From the NCBI GenBank assembly GCA_017556805.1, contig JAFYMC010000011.1, positions 1 through 38,134 of the forward strand: a stretch of 38,134 nucleotides of DNA, read 5' to 3'. Origin of the DNA: Lachnospiraceae bacterium. Lineage in GTDB: Bacteria; Bacillota; Clostridia; Lachnospirales; Lachnospiraceae. Each line of letters starts with the position of its first letter. The stretch's first letter is position 1. The notes below the pieces were generated by a model. It made no database searches, was not told where the DNA came from, and worked only from the letters and a program-made list of their open reading frames with translations. Position numbers and translations under genes: made by a program. Shown in pieces: positions 39-26,851 of the stretch.

Positions 39-124
39 GCCGCAGTGGCGGAACTGGCAGACGCACAGGACTTAAAATCCTGCGGGACTAATCTCCCGTA
101 CCGGTTCGATTCCGGTCTGCGGCA
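39..124 (+). tRNA. tRNA-Leu (anticodon UAA)
   Basis: An 86-nt class II tRNA with a long variable arm. The acceptor stem GCCGCAG pairs with CTGCGGC, followed by discriminator A; no CCA is encoded. The anticodon arm is CAGGA-CTTAAAA-TCCTG, giving anticodon TAA. The T-arm GGTTCGATTCC is canonical. It sits 35 nt upstream of tRNA-Arg and both are probably on one transcript ending at the terminator at 241-278. Confidence 0.97.
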
Positions 125-159
125 TTTGCAGTTTTACTGCAAACAACTTCATGTTGTGT

Positions 160-233
160 GTACGTGTAGCTCAGCTGGATAGAGCACTTGGCTACGGACC
201 AAGGTGTCGGGAGTTCGAATCTTCTCACGTACA
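160..233 (+). tRNA. tRNA-Arg (anticodon ACG)
   Basis: A 74-nt tRNA. The acceptor stem GTACGTG pairs with CACGTAC, followed by discriminator A and no encoded CCA. The anticodon arm is CTTGG-CTACGGA-CCAAG, so the anticodon is ACG (read as ICG, decoding CGU/CGC/CGA). The T-stem GGGAG/CTTCT holds two G-U pairs. The last 14 nt of the gene and flank are repeated at 398-411. Confidence 0.97.
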
Positions 234-13619: not shown

Positions 13620-14552
13620 ATGAACGAGAATTTTTCAAAGAATCTCAGAAAACTGAGACAGGAAAAGAAGCTGACCCAGGAGCAGGTAGCGGAAAAGCTT
13701 GGTGTAAGTGCCCAGTCGGTGTCCCGTTGGGAAACCGGTGCCACCTTTCCGGATGTGATGATGTTACCGGAAATATCCAGATTGTACGGTGTGCTGGTGG
13801 ATGATTTGTTTAAGGATGATTTGCAGGGATATGACCAGCTGTCCGACCGGTTGGTGGCGGTGTATTATGACACCATGAGGTTCGAGGACTTTACGGCGGC
13901 TGTACAAGAGTACGAACGAATGGAAAAGGAAGGAACTATGGAAGCTTGGGACTATAGCAAACGCACTTGGCTTTACGGAAGAATGATTTATGTTTCTACC
14001 AGAAAGATACTGGAAGATTATGATAAAACCATGGAGCTGAGCAAGGAAACTGACCCGGAACTGTATTTCCAGGCGAAAGATGGGAAGTTAATGTTCCGAT
14101 GCAGCTCTACAGCGGACGGTCCGCAGTGTGTGGAAGAACAGCTACAGGCGGTAAAGGAGCATCCGGAGGATTCCAGAGAATGGGCTTGGCTGGAGGGCGC
14201 CTATTATATGACAAAACAGTACGAGGAGTGCTATCGGGTAGCAAAGGAGGCCATTGCGAAATTCCCGGAGGATTCGGATCATTATGGTAGTGCCGGTGAT
14301 GCATGCAAGGAATTGGGAAAGTATGAGGAGGCATATTGGTACTGGGAAAAGCGTCATGAATTAGACCCGGAGAAGTTGGATTGCTTATACGCAATTGCGT
14401 TTTGCCATGAAGGATTGGGAGAATATGATAAGGCCTATGAAGCATGGATGCGGATTGTCGGGTTATTGAACAGACCGTGCGATGAAATTGCTGTGAAGTT
14501 CCCAATGAGAAAAGCTGAGGAATGTAAGGCGAAGCTGGGGAAGAAGGAGTAA
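13620..14552 (+). CDS. XRE regulator with TPR-like C-terminal domain (tandem copy 2)
   Basis: A 310-residue paralogue of the protein at 11688, with the same HTH (VSAQSVSRWETGATFPD at about residues 29-45) and the same helical repeat pattern (YEECYRVAKEAIAKFPE, YEEAYWYWEKRHELDP, YDKAYEAWMRI). It ends in the shared motif KFPMRKAEECKAKLGKK. ATG 13620 follows AAAAGGAGAGTATAGA. The three copies are close enough to reflect recent local duplication, yet the middle of the C-terminal domain differs, which would fit divergence of ligand or partner recognition. It is monocistronic, with its own promoter and terminator hairpin. Confidence 0.9.
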   Translation: MNENFSKNLRKLRQEKKLTQEQVAEKLGVSAQSVSRWETGATFPDVMMLPEISRLYGVLVDDLFKDDLQGYDQLSDRLVAVYYDTMRFEDFTAAVQEYERMEKEGTMEAWDYSKRTWLYGRMIYVSTRKILEDYDKTMELSKETDPELYFQAKDGKLMFRCSSTADGPQCVEEQLQAVKEHPEDSREWAWLEGAYYMTKQYEECYRVAKEAIAKFPEDSDHYGSAGDACKELGKYEEAYWYWEKRHELDPEKLDCLYAIAFCHEGLGEYDKAYEAWMRIVGLLNRPCDEIAVKFPMRKAEECKAKLGKKE

Positions 14553-14603
14553 GAGAAACTAAAAGAGTGTTGAGGCACACGGTGGTTTGAATAAGTTTGT
14601 TAG

Positions 14604-14634
14604 GTGAGGACTCATGGAAACTGTGAGTCCTCAC
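14604..14634 (+). terminator. Hairpin after XRE-TPR copy 2
   Basis: A perfect 11-bp stem GTGAGGACTCA / TGAGTCCTCAC with a 9-nt loop. It is followed by TTAAATT, without a strong T-run. It belongs to the repeated hairpin-promoter unit of this locus. Confidence 0.65.
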
Positions 14635-14647
14635 TTAAATTGCGATA

Positions 14648-14740
14648 TGGATTTTTTTTCGGATTTCCTGTATGCTAGAGTCAAGAAGTCTTCTTATGGT
14701 TGTAAAGGAAAGCAAATTTAAGGGTGCACGCTGAATTTGC
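14648..14740 (+). promoter_or_regulatory. Promoter, palindrome and leader hairpin of XRE-TPR copy 3
   Basis: TGGATT (14648-14653) and TATGCT (14671-14676), 17-bp spacer. The palindrome AAGAAGTCTTCTT is at 14683-14695. Leader hairpin: GCAAATT (14712-14718) with AATTTGC (14734-14740). Confidence 0.7.
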
Positions 14741-14765
14741 GGATGGAGGAAAAGGAGAGTACAGG

Positions 14766-15698
14766 ATGAACGAGAATTTTTCAAAGAATCTCAGAAAGCT
14801 GAGATTGGAAAAGAAGTTAACCCAGGAGCAGGTGGCGGAAAAGCTGGGGGTAAGTGCCCAGGCGGTGTCCCGTTGGGAAACAAGTGTGACCTTCCCGGAT
14901 ATTATGTTGTTGCCGGAGATTGCAAGAATATATGGTGTACTGGTGGATGATCTGTTTAAGGAAAGTCCGCAAGGATATGCCAATTTGGCGGAACGGTTGG
15001 GAACGGTGTATGATGATTCTCAGCGAAACGAGGATTTCATGGCAGCTGTCACGGAGTACGAACGCATGGAGAAGGAAGGTAGCATGAATGCGTGGGATTA
15101 TCGTGGATATGGCTGGGTATACAGCACAATGTTAGAGGTTTGTAAAAGAAAAATAATGGAATACTTTAGTAAGTCTTTGGAACTGAGTAAGGACACGGAT
15201 ACGGAATGCTATTATCGTATGAAAATCGGAATGCTGTCTTATCGATGTTTTGAATTAGGAGAGGGACAGAAGTGTATTGAGGAGCAGTTACAGATAGTAA
15301 AGGATGAGCCGGAAAATTCGGATGAAATGTCTTGTCTGGTAGCAGCGTATTATTATGCACGGCAGTATGAGGAATGTTATCGTGTAGCAAAGGAGGCTAT
15401 TGCAAAATTTTCGGAGGAACCGCGACTATACAGAATCGCCGGTCATGTATGCAGGGATTTGAAAAAGTACGATGAAGCCTTTGTGTACTGGGAAAAGGAT
15501 TTGGAATTCCAGACAACGATTCTGGAATCCCTGTACACCAGTGCGTTCTGTCGTGAGGAATTGGGAGAGTATGACAAGGCTTATGAGGATTGGATGAAAC
15601 TTGTAAAAATTTTGAACGAACAAGGTGCTGAGGTAGAAGTGAAGCTTCCAATGAGAAAGGCCGAGGAATGTAAGGAAAAGATGGGGAAGCGAGAATAA
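14766..15698 (+). CDS. XRE regulator with TPR-like C-terminal domain (tandem copy 3)
   Basis: A 310-residue paralogue of the genes at 11688 and 13620. The HTH is nearly identical to copy 2 (VSAQAVSRWETSVTFPD), while the TPR-like part is the most diverged of the three (YEECYRVAKEAIAKFSE, YDEAFVYWEKDLEFQT). The frame is open from 14724, but ATG 14766 aligns with the other copies and has AAAAGGAGAGTACAGG upstream. A strong terminator follows at 15718. The recognition helices are so alike that all three proteins could bind the same palindrome, giving cross-regulation; that is inference. Confidence 0.9.
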   Translation: MNENFSKNLRKLRLEKKLTQEQVAEKLGVSAQAVSRWETSVTFPDIMLLPEIARIYGVLVDDLFKESPQGYANLAERLGTVYDDSQRNEDFMAAVTEYERMEKEGSMNAWDYRGYGWVYSTMLEVCKRKIMEYFSKSLELSKDTDTECYYRMKIGMLSYRCFELGEGQKCIEEQLQIVKDEPENSDEMSCLVAAYYYARQYEECYRVAKEAIAKFSEEPRLYRIAGHVCRDLKKYDEAFVYWEKDLEFQTTILESLYTSAFCREELGEYDKAYEDWMKLVKILNEQGAEVEVKLPMRKAEECKEKMGKRE

Positions 15699-15765: not shown

Positions 15766-17508
15766 TTACATTTCCTCCGGACACTCCATTCCCAAGAGTC
15801 CGCACCCATCTGTCAATACCTTTTGTACCAGGTCTGTCAGAACCAGACGGGCTTTTTTCTCATGCTCCTCGGCATGAAGAATGGAGCACTCATGGTAGAA
15901 TTTATTAAAAGCGGCGGCAACGGAAATCAGATACCGTGCGATAACGGACGGTTCGTAGCGATCGGCAGCAGCATTTACCGCATCGTTGTAACCGGAAAGT
16001 GTTTTGATTAAAGCATAACTGATGTCGTCGGTGAAAACGGAACAATCAATATCCGCAAGCGTGTCTTTTACTGTGGCAACGACGGTATCGGCAATATCGG
16101 CGGTATCGGAGAAGAAATTGCCTTTCCGTAACACGCTTTTTGCCCGGGCGCAGGTGTACTGGACATACGGGCCGGTAGTGCCGTCAAAGCTCAAAACTTC
16201 GTCCCAGGAAAACTCCACATTTTTGATACGCTGGTTGAACAGGTCGTGGAAAATGACTGCTCCCACGCCCACTATCCGTGCTACAGATTCTTTGTCGGTC
16301 AGGTTCGGATTCTTCTCTTCGATGGCGGCGAGGGCACGGGAAATGGCTTCCTTTAAGATATCCTCGGCGTAGATGATATGGCCGCCACGGGTGGAAAGCT
16401 TCAAGCCGCCGAGGCTTACCAGACCGTACGGGATGTGTACTAAGGAGTCTGTCCAGTCATAGCCCATGAGCTTCACTGCTTGAAAGACCTGCTTAAAATG
16501 CAGACTTTGTTCCAAACCGGTAACATAGAGACATTTGTCAAAGTCATAGGTCTCTTTCCGGTACAGGACCGCCGCAATGTCACGGGAGTGATAGATAGAA
16601 CCGCCGTCGTTTTTCAGGATAAGACACGGCGGCATATCGTAAGTGGACAGGTCAATGATTTTTGCTCCCTGGCTTTCCGTAAGCAGATTCTTTTCCGTGA
16701 GTTCTTTCACCAGTGCTGGGACTTTCTCACGGAAGATGCTTTCGCCGGTATAGGAGTCAAAGGACATGTGAAGCAGGTCGTAGACACGCTCAAATTCAAT
16801 CATACTGATGTCCTTGAACCAATTCCAGAAAGAAAGTGCCTCCGGGTCATTTTGTTCCATTTTTACAAACCAGGCCCGGGCATCTTCTGTAAGCTCCGGA
16901 TGCAGTCTTTCTTCGGCATTAAACTTTATATAAACCCGAAGCAGTTCTTCGATTCCCTTTTCTTCTACCTGTTCTTTGCTGCTCCAAAGCTTATAAGCAA
17001 CGATGAGCTTTCCGAACTGGGTGCCCCAGTCACCCAAGTGATTAATACGAACCACATGCCAGCCCAGTTTGTCGAAAATCTTATACAGAGAATTGCCGAT
17101 GACGGTGGTACGCAAATGGCCTACATGAAAGTTTTTGGCAATGTTGGGAGAAGAGTAGTCCATGCATACGGTTTTGCCGGCGCCCGGTTGGTCCACGCCC
17201 AGAGTCTCGGTTTGTAGTTTGAGAAGACAGTCCTTGGCGTAAGCGGAACGGTCAAAAAAGAAATTGCAGTATCCGCCAACGGTTTCGATACGGGCAATGC
17301 CCAGCAGGGGCAAATCCGGCAAAAGAGCGGATTTGATATCTTCTGCAATCAGTGCAGGGCTTTTCCGTAAAGCCTTCGCAAAGGAAAAGCAAGGCAGGGC
17401 AAAGTCACCCATGGTTGACTCCGGCGGGACAGCCAGAAGTTCGGCAATGGTGTCCGGAGAAATGTCCGGAAGTGCAGTCGCGATGTGGTTACAAAGTGTT
17501 GTTTTCAT
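15766..17508 (-). CDS. argS: Arginyl-tRNA synthetase
   Basis: A 580-residue class I aminoacyl-tRNA synthetase that charges tRNA-Arg. The N-terminal Add-1 domain covers about residues 1-95. The HIGH motif is HVGH at 128-131, after SSPNIAKNF. The KMSK-loop counterpart is KLSTRGG, and the C-terminal anticodon-binding DALR domain holds YTCARAKSVLRK. The frame is open to 17640, but ATG 17508 follows AGGAGGTTTCTC and begins the family's N-terminus. The upstream open part is the leader transcript. That leader carries a peptide with five Arg codons and a terminator, so expression is probably controlled by arginine or charged tRNA-Arg supply. Confidence 0.96.
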   Translation of the reverse strand: MKTTLCNHIATALPDISPDTIAELLAVPPESTMGDFALPCFSFAKALRKSPALIAEDIKSALLPDLPLLGIARIETVGGYCNFFFDRSAYAKDCLLKLQTETLGVDQPGAGKTVCMDYSSPNIAKNFHVGHLRTTVIGNSLYKIFDKLGWHVVRINHLGDWGTQFGKLIVAYKLWSSKEQVEEKGIEELLRVYIKFNAEERLHPELTEDARAWFVKMEQNDPEALSFWNWFKDISMIEFERVYDLLHMSFDSYTGESIFREKVPALVKELTEKNLLTESQGAKIIDLSTYDMPPCLILKNDGGSIYHSRDIAAVLYRKETYDFDKCLYVTGLEQSLHFKQVFQAVKLMGYDWTDSLVHIPYGLVSLGGLKLSTRGGHIIYAEDILKEAISRALAAIEEKNPNLTDKESVARIVGVGAVIFHDLFNQRIKNVEFSWDEVLSFDGTTGPYVQYTCARAKSVLRKGNFFSDTADIADTVVATVKDTLADIDCSVFTDDISYALIKTLSGYNDAVNAAADRYEPSVIARYLISVAAAFNKFYHECSILHAEEHEKKARLVLTDLVQKVLTDGCGLLGMECPEEM

Positions 17509-17584: not shown

Positions 17585-17634
17585 GAAACAAAAAGAACCG
17601 CAAGGATCGTGTTCACGAAATCCGTTGCGGTTCT
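17585..17634 (-). terminator. argS leader terminator (attenuator)
   Basis: On the minus strand AGAACCGCAA (17634-17625) pairs perfectly with TTGCGGTTCT (17603-17594). An inner ATCC/GGAT and CGTG/CACG helix extends the stem, and TTTTTGTTT follows. It lies about 80 nt before the argS start codon and downstream of the leader peptide. Nothing upstream on this strand needs it except the leader RNA. Confidence 0.85.
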
Positions 17635-17729
17635 ATGCATCTATGAATGTTATCACAGCACCGCACGGCAACAAGACGTACTCTCTTGCAACCGTGCGAT
17701 AATCAGCATGGTTACAAGAGCATACGTCT
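17622..17729 (-). promoter_or_regulatory. argS alternative leader helices (antiterminator and competitors)
   Basis: Four competing pairings are visible on the minus strand. Helix A: 17729-17710 (last leader-peptide codons, from the fourth Arg codon through the stop) with 17693-17674, 17 bp with two small interruptions. Helix B: 17698-17692 with 17668-17662, 7 bp, using bases of the 3' arm of A. Antiterminator C: 17668-17654 with 17637-17622, 14 bp with one mismatch and one bulge. Terminator D: 17634-17625 with 17603-17594. A excludes B, B excludes C, and C excludes D. Confidence 0.75.
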
Positions 17730-17768
17730 CTGTCTGCGTCTTAAGCTGTTCTGTAAGAAAATATTCAT
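17712..17768 (-). CDS. argS leader peptide, arginine-rich
   Basis: An 18-codon frame, MNIFLQNSLRRRQRRMLL. Five of the six codons 10-15 encode arginine (AGA, CGC, AGA, CAG, AGA, CGT; the CAG is Gln). AAAGGAC lies 7 nt before the ATG, and a promoter lies about 30 nt upstream. The last codons form the 5' arm of leader helix A. By analogy with amino-acid operon leaders such as trp and his, ribosome stalling at uncharged Arg codons would select the antiterminated fold. It is probably not a functional peptide in itself. It is the only such frame in this leader with a ribosome binding site. Confidence 0.82.
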   Translation of the reverse strand: MNIFLQNSLRRRQRRMLL

Positions 17769-17798
17769 AGCAGTTGTCCTTTCGGAAATTTTAGGTGT

Positions 17799-17827
17799 AT
17801 CATAACACGGAATGAAAAAGAATGCAA
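17799..17827 (-). promoter_or_regulatory. Promoter of the argS leader transcript
   Basis: On the minus strand, -35 TTGCAT (17827-17822) and -10 TATGAT (17804-17799) are 17 bp apart. The transcript would start near 17792, about 24 nt ahead of the leader peptide. Confidence 0.78.
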
Positions 17828-25208: not shown

Positions 25209-25319
25209 GGGTACGAAGTGTACCCGAAAATCTTGGAGAGATTCATGACAAATGAACGCCGAAGGTGTAAGGTGACAAAGGCGTCACCGATCTCTCAGGC
25301 AAAAGGACAGGAGGATTTT
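25209..25319 (+). ncRNA. Glycine riboswitch (single aptamer with 5' hairpin)
   Basis: The conserved aptamer core runs from GGAGAG (25235-25240) through GAACGCCGAAGG and TGACAAAGGCGTCACC to CTCTCAGGCAAAAGGACAG (ending 25310). A 6-bp hairpin GGGTAC/GTACCC (25209-25225) takes the place of the missing partner aptamer, as in singlet glycine riboswitches. The closing helix AAAATCTT (25227-25234) with AGGATTTT (25312-25319) covers part of the agcS Shine-Dalgarno AGGAGG. Glycine binding would therefore hide the RBS. This off-switch reading is inference. Confidence 0.93.
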
Positions 25320-25321
25320 TT

Positions 25322-26851
25322 ATGAAAGGCTTTATGGAGCTTCTTACCGATATTAACGGTAAGGTCAACGATTTCGTGTGGGTACAGGTAGGACTGATCT
25401 TGTTAATCGGTGCAGGTCTTCTCACAACGATTGTAACTAAGGTGTTCCAAATCAGTCATTTGAAGCACTGGTGGACGAAGACCATTGTGAGCGTATTTAA
25501 GAAGGATGCACAGAAGAAGGAGGCCGGTTCTGTTTCCCAGTTCCAGGCACTTTGTACGGCTTTGGCGGCTACCATCGGTACCGGTAACATCGCCGGTGTG
25601 GCAGCGGCTATCGTCATCGGCGGACCGGGTGCGGTGTTTTGGATGTGGGTCATGGCATTCCTTGGAATGATGACCAACTTCTCTGAAAACGTATTGGGTA
25701 TTTATTACCGCCGCAGAAATAAGCAGGGCGAGTGGTCCGGCGGTCCGATGTACTATCTGCAGGACGGTTTGGGAAGATTAAAGGGATGTAAGGTAATCGG
25801 TAAGATTCTTGCTGTTTTATTTGCAATTTGTGCGATTCTGGCATCCTTCGGTATCGGTAACATGGGCCAGATTAATAAGATTGTAATCAATGTAGAGTCT
25901 GCATTCTTTAAGAATGTAGAGGCTCCGACGGTAGTTGGTGGAGCTTCCCTGATTGCTCTTATTATCGGTCTTGTACTTATGGTAGTGGCAGCGCTGATTA
26001 TTATCGGTGGCTTGCAGCGTATTGCAGCAGTAGCGGAGCGCGTGGTTCCGTTTATGGCAATCGCATATGTGGTAGGCTGTCTCGTAATTCTTTTTGTAAA
26101 TATCGGTGAAATCGGAGCAATTTTTGGTTCTATCTTTAAGTTTGCATTCGGTGTAAAGGCGGTAGGCGGTGCTGCGGCAGGTATTATGATTAAGACTGTA
26201 ATTGTACAGGGTTGTAAGCGCGGTGCATTCTCCAATGAGGCAGGCTTGGGTTCTTCCGTTATGGTACATTCCAACTCCAACGTTAAGGAGCCGGTAAAGC
26301 AGGGTATGTGGGGTATCTTCGAAGTATTTGCAGATACTATGGTAGTATGTACCATGACTGCGGTTGTTGTGCTTTCTTCCGGTGCAATTGACTTAAATAC
26401 CGGTCTTGCGGCAGCAGGTACCAACGATGCAACCTTAGTGGCAACTGCTTTCGGTAAGGTATTCGGTCAGCCGGGTGAATGGTTCATTGCTATCGCAATG
26501 TTATTATTCGCATTTACCACTGTACTGGGCTGGTCTCACTACGGCAGCAAGGCAGTAGAGTACTTATTCGGTCTTAAGGCAGTGAAGGTATATAAGGTGT
26601 TCTTCGTACTTTTGGTTGTCAGCGGAGCGCTGATGAGCTCCTCCATTGCATGGGATATTTCCGATACCTTTAACGGTATGATGATGATTCCGAACTTAAT
26701 CGGTGTTGTAGTGCTTACTCCGGTACTGATTAAGATTGTACGCAACTATGTGGATCGTAAGATTAAGGGCAAGGTGGTAACACCGGTGCTTTCTTATGAC
26801 GCAGATGTTCAGAAGGAAATGGAAGAGGCCGTGAACAACGGAGAAGAGTAA
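25322..26851 (+). CDS. agcS: Alanine/glycine:cation symporter (AgcS)
   Basis: A 509-residue membrane protein of the AGCS family with about eleven helices. It takes up glycine and/or alanine with sodium. Landmarks are LCTALAATIGTGNIAGVAAA, GGPGAVFWMWVMAFLGMMTNF, RGAFSNEAGLGSSVMVHSNS and the C-terminal part with FTTVLGWSHYGSKAVEYLFG. The ATG follows AGGAGGATTTTTT, which is part of the riboswitch closing helix. The glycine riboswitch directly upstream supports glycine as the sensed and probably transported substrate. A strong terminator follows. Confidence 0.96.
   Translation: MKGFMELLTDINGKVNDFVWVQVGLILLIGAGLLTTIVTKVFQISHLKHWWTKTIVSVFKKDAQKKEAGSVSQFQALCTALAATIGTGNIAGVAAAIVIGGPGAVFWMWVMAFLGMMTNFSENVLGIYYRRRNKQGEWSGGPMYYLQDGLGRLKGCKVIGKILAVLFAICAILASFGIGNMGQINKIVINVESAFFKNVEAPTVVGGASLIALIIGLVLMVVAALIIIGGLQRIAAVAERVVPFMAIAYVVGCLVILFVNIGEIGAIFGSIFKFAFGVKAVGGAAAGIMIKTVIVQGCKRGAFSNEAGLGSSVMVHSNSNVKEPVKQGMWGIFEVFADTMVVCTMTAVVVLSSGAIDLNTGLAAAGTNDATLVATAFGKVFGQPGEWFIAIAMLLFAFTTVLGWSHYGSKAVEYLFGLKAVKVYKVFFVLLVVSGALMSSSIAWDISDTFNGMMMIPNLIGVVVLTPVLIKIVRNYVDRKIKGKVVTPVLSYDADVQKEMEEAVNNGEE

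Follow-up and report, generated by a model that had tools for sequence, protein, structure and literature searches.

The window analysed in this study is a stretch of 38,134 nucleotides from the genome of a Lachnospiraceae bacterium. On its minus strand lies a gene for an arginine--tRNA ligase (15766..17508; 580 aa; TIGR00456, 452 bits) with an AGGAGG sequence at 17520-17515, hereafter argS2. The region upstream of argS2, also read on the minus strand, was found to contain the parts of a leader. A promoter-like element (17799..17827) is composed of TTGCAT at 17827-17822, a spacer of 17 nt and TATGAT at 17804-17799. A plausible ribosome binding site, GAAAGGA (17777..17783), is followed by an open reading frame of 18 codons, MNIFLQNSLRRRQRRMLL, with the stop codon TAA (17712..17768); this frame was read from the sequence, and its relatives were aligned. 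Five Arg residues are found within six codons of the frame (RRRQRR). The codons AGA CGC AGA (Arg-Arg-Arg) at 17733..17741, which are conserved before argS2, are the putative sensor codons, and a second Arg pair, AGA CGT, is located at 17729-17724. The promoter-like element, the ribosome binding site and the Arg-rich frame had all been described in an earlier note on this DNA, and reading of the sequence showed each of them to be present.

The -35 hexamer of the promoter-like element is weak, being identical to TTGACA at three of six positions, and the element was absent from the output of a consensus promoter scan of the window. A loose search (TTGNNN, a spacer of 16-18 nt and a -10 hexamer with at least 4 of 6 matches), carried out without a chance control, showed a promoter-like element upstream of 26 leaders, out of the 30 for which sufficient upstream sequence was available. 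Elsewhere in the window, two adjoining genes on the plus strand (13620-15698) have HTH starts that are weakly RstR-like, below the curated cutoff, and two tRNA genes (39-233, plus strand) are located near the contig edge.

Four helices, A to D, were found where the earlier note had placed them. Helix A (17674..17729) is formed between the last codons of the frame, 17729-17710, and 17693-17674. Helix B (17662..17698) joins 17698-17692 to 17668-17662, with an inner hairpin at 17688-17684/17676-17672. The antiterminator helix C (17622..17668) pairs 17668-17654 with 17637-17622, its core being 17665-17660/17631-17626. The terminator helix D (17590..17634) pairs 17634-17625 with 17603-17594 and has a T-tract at 17594-17590. 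Helix D was obtained by folding; a terminator scanner with a loop limit of 3-8 nt picked up no terminator here. The earlier note overlooked two further stems, which appear in the MFE fold of the untranslated leader and make up a rod. In the start-codon stem (17641..17770), CTATGAAT at 17770-17763 is paired with ATTCATAG at 17648-17641. In the mid-ORF stem (17653..17756), 17756-17751 is paired with 17658-17653, and this stem is extended by the short pieces 17749-17748 with 17661-17660 and 17746-17745 with 17664-17663.

The earlier note had treated this gene as the cell's argS. This view had to be given up, since the genome has a second argS (G000:C26:11816-13585), which is only 27% identical to the window argS. 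In a search of 120 genomes with TIGR00456, two separate argS genes above the cutoff were found in G000 (the genome of the window), G006, G024 and G096 and in no other genome. Two argS genes were also found in G127, G277, G288 and G345. All eight sampled genomes with both the leader and argS2 have two argS genes, that is, a second, separate housekeeping synthetase is present in each. In G007 and G115 the leader is present and argS2 is absent, and each of these genomes has one argS. The identity to the window argS is 55-93% for the leader-linked proteins (over partial lengths in some cases) and 27-34% for the housekeeping-type proteins of the family.

A tree of 67 proteins was constructed from all 42 complete rows of the argS2-like type and 25 of the 82 housekeeping-type rows. 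The 16 leader-linked argS2 proteins in this tree formed one clade (100/100); the leader-linked argS2 genes of L015, L021, L029 and L030, incomplete in the fetched stretches, were left out. The clade sits inside a wider type, which is the sole argS in some members of the family and in other families. HxGH was found in all 16 leader-linked proteins and KLSTR in 14 of them. A KMSK-like string, in the pattern used, was absent from 79 of 85 housekeeping-type argS.

A covariance model built from 26 leaders was applied to 90 argS loci, which are part of the argS places found by TIGR00456. Strong matches were obtained at four of these loci, all of them argS2, and also at 4/4 further argS2 genes. The housekeeping argS was rejected as a target of the leader, as it had no strong model match in the loci searched; weak matches at the housekeeping argS of L102 (E 0.92) and L201 (E 0.33) were attributed to chance. 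The leader was absent from the argS2-like genes outside the clade, both in 19 loci of a phylum sample and at seven single-copy argS2-like genes of the family. Within 450 nt upstream, 13 of the 90 loci have ORFs in which four or more of seven codons are Arg; four of them are the leaders, and the other nine were taken as chance. Since the sampled genomes with leader and argS2 have two argS genes each, and since, among the argS loci searched, the leader stands only at one separate clade, the window argS is, as judged from its sequence, an auxiliary argS2 with a putative switch of its own, which is sometimes lost.

The leader is conserved in 31 aligned copies, nearly all from records labelled Lachnospiraceae. 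A blastn search of 150 genomes of the family found it in seven, including the genome of the window and G012; the match in G012, however, covers 22 bases only, is chance-like and was dropped. A pattern scan of genome contigs located the leader on 24 contigs, 22 of which are labelled as Lachnospiraceae or as genera that we take to be members of this family. The remaining two are labelled 'uncultured Clostridium sp.' (L015) and 'Paenibacillaceae bacterium' (L024), and the argS of the latter groups with Lacrimispora in the tree. The covariance model matched 13 of 397 family genomes, ten of them strongly (E <1e-25). Two weak matches, in G110 (L045) and G230 (L047), were rejected by eye as chance, neither having an Arg-rich frame or a synthetase downstream. 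The plasmid collection gave no match to the leader.

Among the 31 aligned leaders, 20 precede argS2, five precede a methyltransferase gene, and six are orphans or undecided; the leader at L025 runs off the fetched stretch. Arg-Arg-Arg is kept in all of the 20 argS2-linked leaders, with CGC, CGT or CGA as synonymous middle codons. The possibility raised in the earlier note that relatives keep the hairpins and not the Arg frame was therefore not borne out before argS2, and the exceptions are found elsewhere. The five methyltransferase-linked leaders have Glu-Arg-Arg. The orphan L012 has Glu-Arg-Met and lies upstream of genes that seem, by eye, to be related to transposition. In the orphan L026 the leader frame is broken and adjoins an apparent argS remnant. 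Pieces matching argS2, of 28, 67 and 34 residues, are kept at L018 (one locus with L006), L031 and L026, respectively, the last being a weak match (E 6e-4). A second leader copy in G345 (L049:1501-1695), with the peptide LRRRDRRKHL, precedes a BlaI-like gene (by eye) and not argS. The remnants and the orphans, taken together, suggest at the sequence level that loci which retain argS2 also retain the Arg block.

Many of the leader peptides also have Asn-Ser-Leu ahead of the Arg block and end in Leu-Leu. This could be explained if a nascent Arg-rich arrest peptide stalls the ribosome and senses free arginine or another ligand instead of tRNA charging. However, Asn-Ser-Leu is not kept in L016, L023, L030, L043, L044 and L049. 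In addition, the codons of both motifs take part in base pairing, in the rod and within helix A, which could account for their conservation without any function of the peptide. An arrest peptide therefore seems to us highly unlikely.

Covariation of the helices across Lachnospiraceae had been proposed as a check in the earlier note. In the first alignment (A3, 26 leaders), the search pattern fixed many columns of helix A, which made it an unfair test of this helix, and helices A and C were not above shuffles. The claim of covariation accordingly rests on a second alignment (A4), in which five leaders from outside the pattern (L038, L042, L043, L044 and L049) were added to A3. In this alignment 96.4% of the cells of helix A are paired, and four pairs have changes on both sides, although these double changes come from few sequences (4 cells). 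The mean of the shuffled alignments was 0.3 such pairs, none of 500 shuffles reached four, and slid versions of helix A had at most one. In place of the usual CGTA/TACG, ACATA/TATGT together with a further pair is found in L042, TGTA/TACA in L043 and CGCA/TGCG in L049. The last CGT of the ORF has become TGT (Cys) in L043 and CAT (His) in L042, where helix A compensates the base change. Helix C showed no double change in the aligned leaders. For helices B and D, 97.8% of the cells are paired and the covariation score was above all 500 shuffles, whereas the count of double-change pairs was not above shuffles (144/500).

These results bear on the possibility that the structure is a constitutive terminator left from a duplication, with no regulation. 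The orphan leaders that adjoin remnants of argS2 (L006/L018, L026 and L031) would agree with such an origin. The compensatory changes in helix A, the competitor of helix B, and the strict codons in the argS2-linked copies would not be expected of it, and we regard a constitutive terminator as extremely improbable.

The untranslated leader was predicted to fold with -76.2 kcal/mol, compared with -44.6 kcal/mol for shuffled sequences (z -8.57), and none of 200 shuffles was as stable. When the ORF is left out, helices B and D form (z -6.83), again with none of 200 shuffles as stable. In the MFE fold of the untranslated RNA, the ORF pairs with the downstream region. The start codon is paired in 23 of the 31 leaders, and the region of the Asn-Ser-Leu codons and that of the Arg block pair downstream in 22 and in all 31, respectively.

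In the ribosome-mask model, the footprint of the ribosome was blocked and the transcript was folded through the complete 5' arm of D, with the 3' arm still absent. Mask folding of the window leader reproduced the switch between A/C and B that the earlier note had described. As long as the A site lies at one of the first four Arg codons, helices A and C form, and B takes their place once it has reached the fifth; C has values of 0.84-0.90 for each A-site codon through the fourth Arg and drops to 0.00 at the fifth and beyond. With a footprint of +10, 22 of 26 leaders had C values of 0.5 or more when the A site was placed on the opening codon of the block, and all 26 had values below 0.1 when it was at the stop codon. 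The attenuation model of the earlier note is supported by these predictions and, besides the identity of the gene, has to be refined in that the untranslated RNA is also predicted without C (below 0.1, footprint +10) in 23 of 26 leaders. The window leader is one of the three exceptions, with C predicted at 0.83 without a ribosome, and its own untranslated state may, according to the model, not be off.

A strict switch at the second codon of the block was predicted in 18 of 26 leaders with a footprint of +8 nt, in 17 with +10 nt and in 15 with +12 nt. In L011, L013, L023 and L024 the switch fails at both the first and the second codon of the block. When the full-length window leader is taken at equilibrium, D is the favoured helix in all states (D 1.00 throughout), and the switch would therefore need co-transcriptional timing. 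A stall at any codon before the Arg block likewise permits C in the mask model of the window. The mask model thus does not single out the Arg codons. Mask folding is accordingly taken here as a consistency check, not as proof.

On the basis of the sequence and of the modelling, we consider it very probable that the auxiliary argS2 is controlled by ribosome-mediated transcription attenuation, in which uncharged tRNA-Arg is sensed. The ORF, the helices, their conservation, the covariation of helix A and the two argS genes are read directly from the sequences. Transcription by RNA polymerase would be initiated from the promoter near 17799, and translation of the leader ORF by a ribosome would begin. 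When charged tRNA-Arg is ample, the ribosome would read through the Arg codons, reach the stop codon and cover the 5' strand of helix A. With helix A blocked, B would form, C would be prevented, and D would end transcription before argS2. When tRNA-Arg is uncharged, owing to arginine shortage or to a housekeeping ArgRS that is failing or inhibited, the ribosome would wait in the Arg-Arg-Arg block. Helix A would then form beyond the ribosome and exclude B, C would form with the 5' half of D, and argS2 would be transcribed. If the leader is not translated, the whole ORF and the downstream region would, in most relatives, form the rod, which would also hide the C strand. The order of events, the signal and the induction of the spare enzyme are what we infer from these parts.

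Synthetase genes of Bacillota are often under the control of T-boxes. It could therefore be supposed that a T-box, or another RNA that binds tRNA or a metabolite directly, controls argS2 and that the ORF is incidental. Indeed, one of the three argS genes of B. cereus ATCC 10987 has a T-box, as stated in an excerpt of PMC2494555. However, there was no gathering-level Rfam match at the window leader or at the argS of 20 related loci, and the frame of the ORF is conserved. The T-box covariance model had no match in the window leader or the related argS loci; a relaxed threshold for Rfam yielded three weak matches only. The remark in the earlier note that no T-box is visible agrees with these searches, which ruled out a T-box or other known RNA as the regulator in the window and the 20 related loci. 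The leader is almost certainly not an RNA of this kind. As separate observations, the sole gathering-level Rfam match among the 20 related loci is a Clostridiales-1 RNA (L065:3194-3345, plus strand, 109 bits), located downstream of a single-copy argS2-like gene, and the window contains a Glycine riboswitch aptamer (25223-25320, plus strand; Rfam, 55 bits) directly upstream of an ORF at 25322.

Copies of the leader are also found before other genes. The genome of the window has a second copy at G000:C36, which is 72% identical over 168 bases. At this locus (L002:1405-3116) the copy precedes a gene for a class I methyltransferase, which is followed by a GNAT gene. The combination of a Glu-Arg-Arg leader and a methyltransferase was found at five loci (L002, L014, L017, L020 and L027), where the methyltransferases are 84-90% identical to that of L002. 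GNAT-like ORFs were seen by eye after the methyltransferase at L014 and L027. The replacement of the first Arg by Glu in these copies weakens the idea of a pure Arg code.

It is worth considering whether the leader senses slow translation in general. An antibiotic that targets the ribosome would cause a stall anywhere early in the ORF, and argS2, the methyltransferase and GNAT would be induced without specificity for arginine. Any stall through the fourth Arg codon permits C in the mask model of the window, as this reading would require, and the copies before the methyltransferase (five loci), with GNAT in L002, and before the BlaI-like gene (by eye) at L049 would suit it. Such attenuators, HflXr and MsrD, are found in Bacillota according to literature excerpts. 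On the other hand, all 20 argS2-linked leaders have Arg-Arg-Arg and the gene that follows is the cognate synthetase, and a possibly related leader before aspS carries Asp-Asp-Asp. We therefore think a general sensor unlikely.

The aspS leader was found in G349 (L046) as a weak model match (29.6 bits) before an archaeal-type aspS; its peptide is MNQLHFVKLNRDDDR. In G397 (L177), which belongs to the same genus, MTPFNIRLIELNRDDD is found at the matching place (20.1 bits, E 0.0054). Both leaders have an Asp-Asp-Asp ORF, an A-like stem directly after the Asp codons, and a terminator. Bacterial-type aspS genes were also above the cutoff, two in G349 and one in G397. In the mask model, the leader of G397 switches at the third Asp codon. 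The fit is poor for the leader of G349, where the switch comes earlier and is partly reversed at the second Asp codon. The archaeal-type aspS of G397 reads in two frames (252 and 162 residues), indicating that the gene is broken or misassembled. At the 30 of 58 archaeal-type aspS places that were fetched, the model had no match. Clustered Asp/Asn ORFs at eight of these 30 loci looked like chance; seven of the eight upstream stretches contain GGTGGTACCGCGG, which we take to be a T-box hallmark.

The Arg and Asp leaders may share a common ancestor. A wider hypothesis is that one ancestral attenuator has served as a re-codable cassette before several genes, its sensor codons being recoded to Arg-Arg-Arg for a spare ArgRS, to Asp-Asp-Asp for a spare archaeal-type AspRS and to Glu-Arg-Arg for a methyltransferase, with GNAT in some loci. 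Together these might provide an inducible defence against compounds of competitors that block synthetases or deplete charged tRNA. We put this forward as a tentative and rather doubtful hypothesis, which is given lower odds because of the split aspS of G397. How an attenuator changes its sensor codon could be learned from the Asp version and from the copies in front of other genes. As for the attenuation of argS2 by uncharged tRNA-Arg, if true, it would hint that arginylation in Lachnospiraceae may be under some natural threat, and the leader could serve as a reporter of tRNA-Arg charging. The link to synthetase inhibitors is speculation.

The trp, his, thr and pheST leaders of Proteobacteria have a coding leader, alternative hairpins, an antiterminator and a terminator, and this order is shared with the argS2 leader. 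They differ in that the argS2 leader serves a spare synthetase rather than biosynthesis. The Rfam model Thr_leader (RF00506) gave 16.3 bits for the argS2 leader (E 1.4), below the gathering cutoff of 55. As in the trp/his class, a short ORF predicted to be translated carries repeated cognate codons (Arg-Arg-Arg in 20/20 argS2-linked leaders), and the antiterminator and the terminator are mutually exclusive, with a choice of hairpins that, to judge from the covariation of helix A and the mask folding, would be set by the ribosome. The proposed mechanism belongs to an already known class.

According to excerpts of PMC2965389, leader-peptide attenuation is little described in Bacillota, and Naville and Gautheret (2010) predicted His leader peptides on the hisS paralogs hisS* and hisZ in bacilli. 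Those predictions resemble the present one in that they were made from sequence, in Bacillota, for a synthetase paralog whose leader peptide carries the cognate codons; they differ in having His codons and another paralog. The terms argS, arginine and arginyl are absent from the main text of PMC2965389. The ilv-leu operon of S. aureus has a Leu-rich attenuator peptide, and its expression is raised on mupirocin, which binds IleRS, as described in an excerpt of PMC5794164. This is also leader-peptide attenuation in Bacillota, but of a biosynthetic operon and with Leu and Ile codons. Duplicated synthetases, including antibiotic-resistant ones, are reviewed in PMC9437257, as its excerpt indicates. 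No paper on an argS leader peptide was among the matches listed in the open-licence literature. Within the literature searched, there is no precedent for an auxiliary argS with an Arg leader, for the conservation and covariation of this leader, for its re-use upstream of other genes or for the possible Asp version.

The trpRS1 gene of Streptomyces coelicolor reportedly encodes an auxiliary, antibiotic-resistant TrpRS that is under ribosome-mediated transcriptional attenuation. Its leader is said to contain cognate codons, like the Arg codons before argS2. The two systems are alike in that an auxiliary synthetase beside a housekeeping copy is subject, or in the case of argS2 is predicted to be subject, to ribosome-mediated attenuation, and a separate housekeeping synthetase was found in all eight genomes with the leader and argS2. 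They differ in that one involves Trp and TrpRS and the other Arg and the ArgRS of Lachnospiraceae. An excerpt of PMC4787780 cites Vecchione and Sello (2010) for an auxiliary TrpRS under ribosome-mediated attenuation. A cognate-codon switch tied to a spare synthetase, as proposed here for argS2, would therefore repeat a pairing that is known from an antibiotic-resistant TrpRS.
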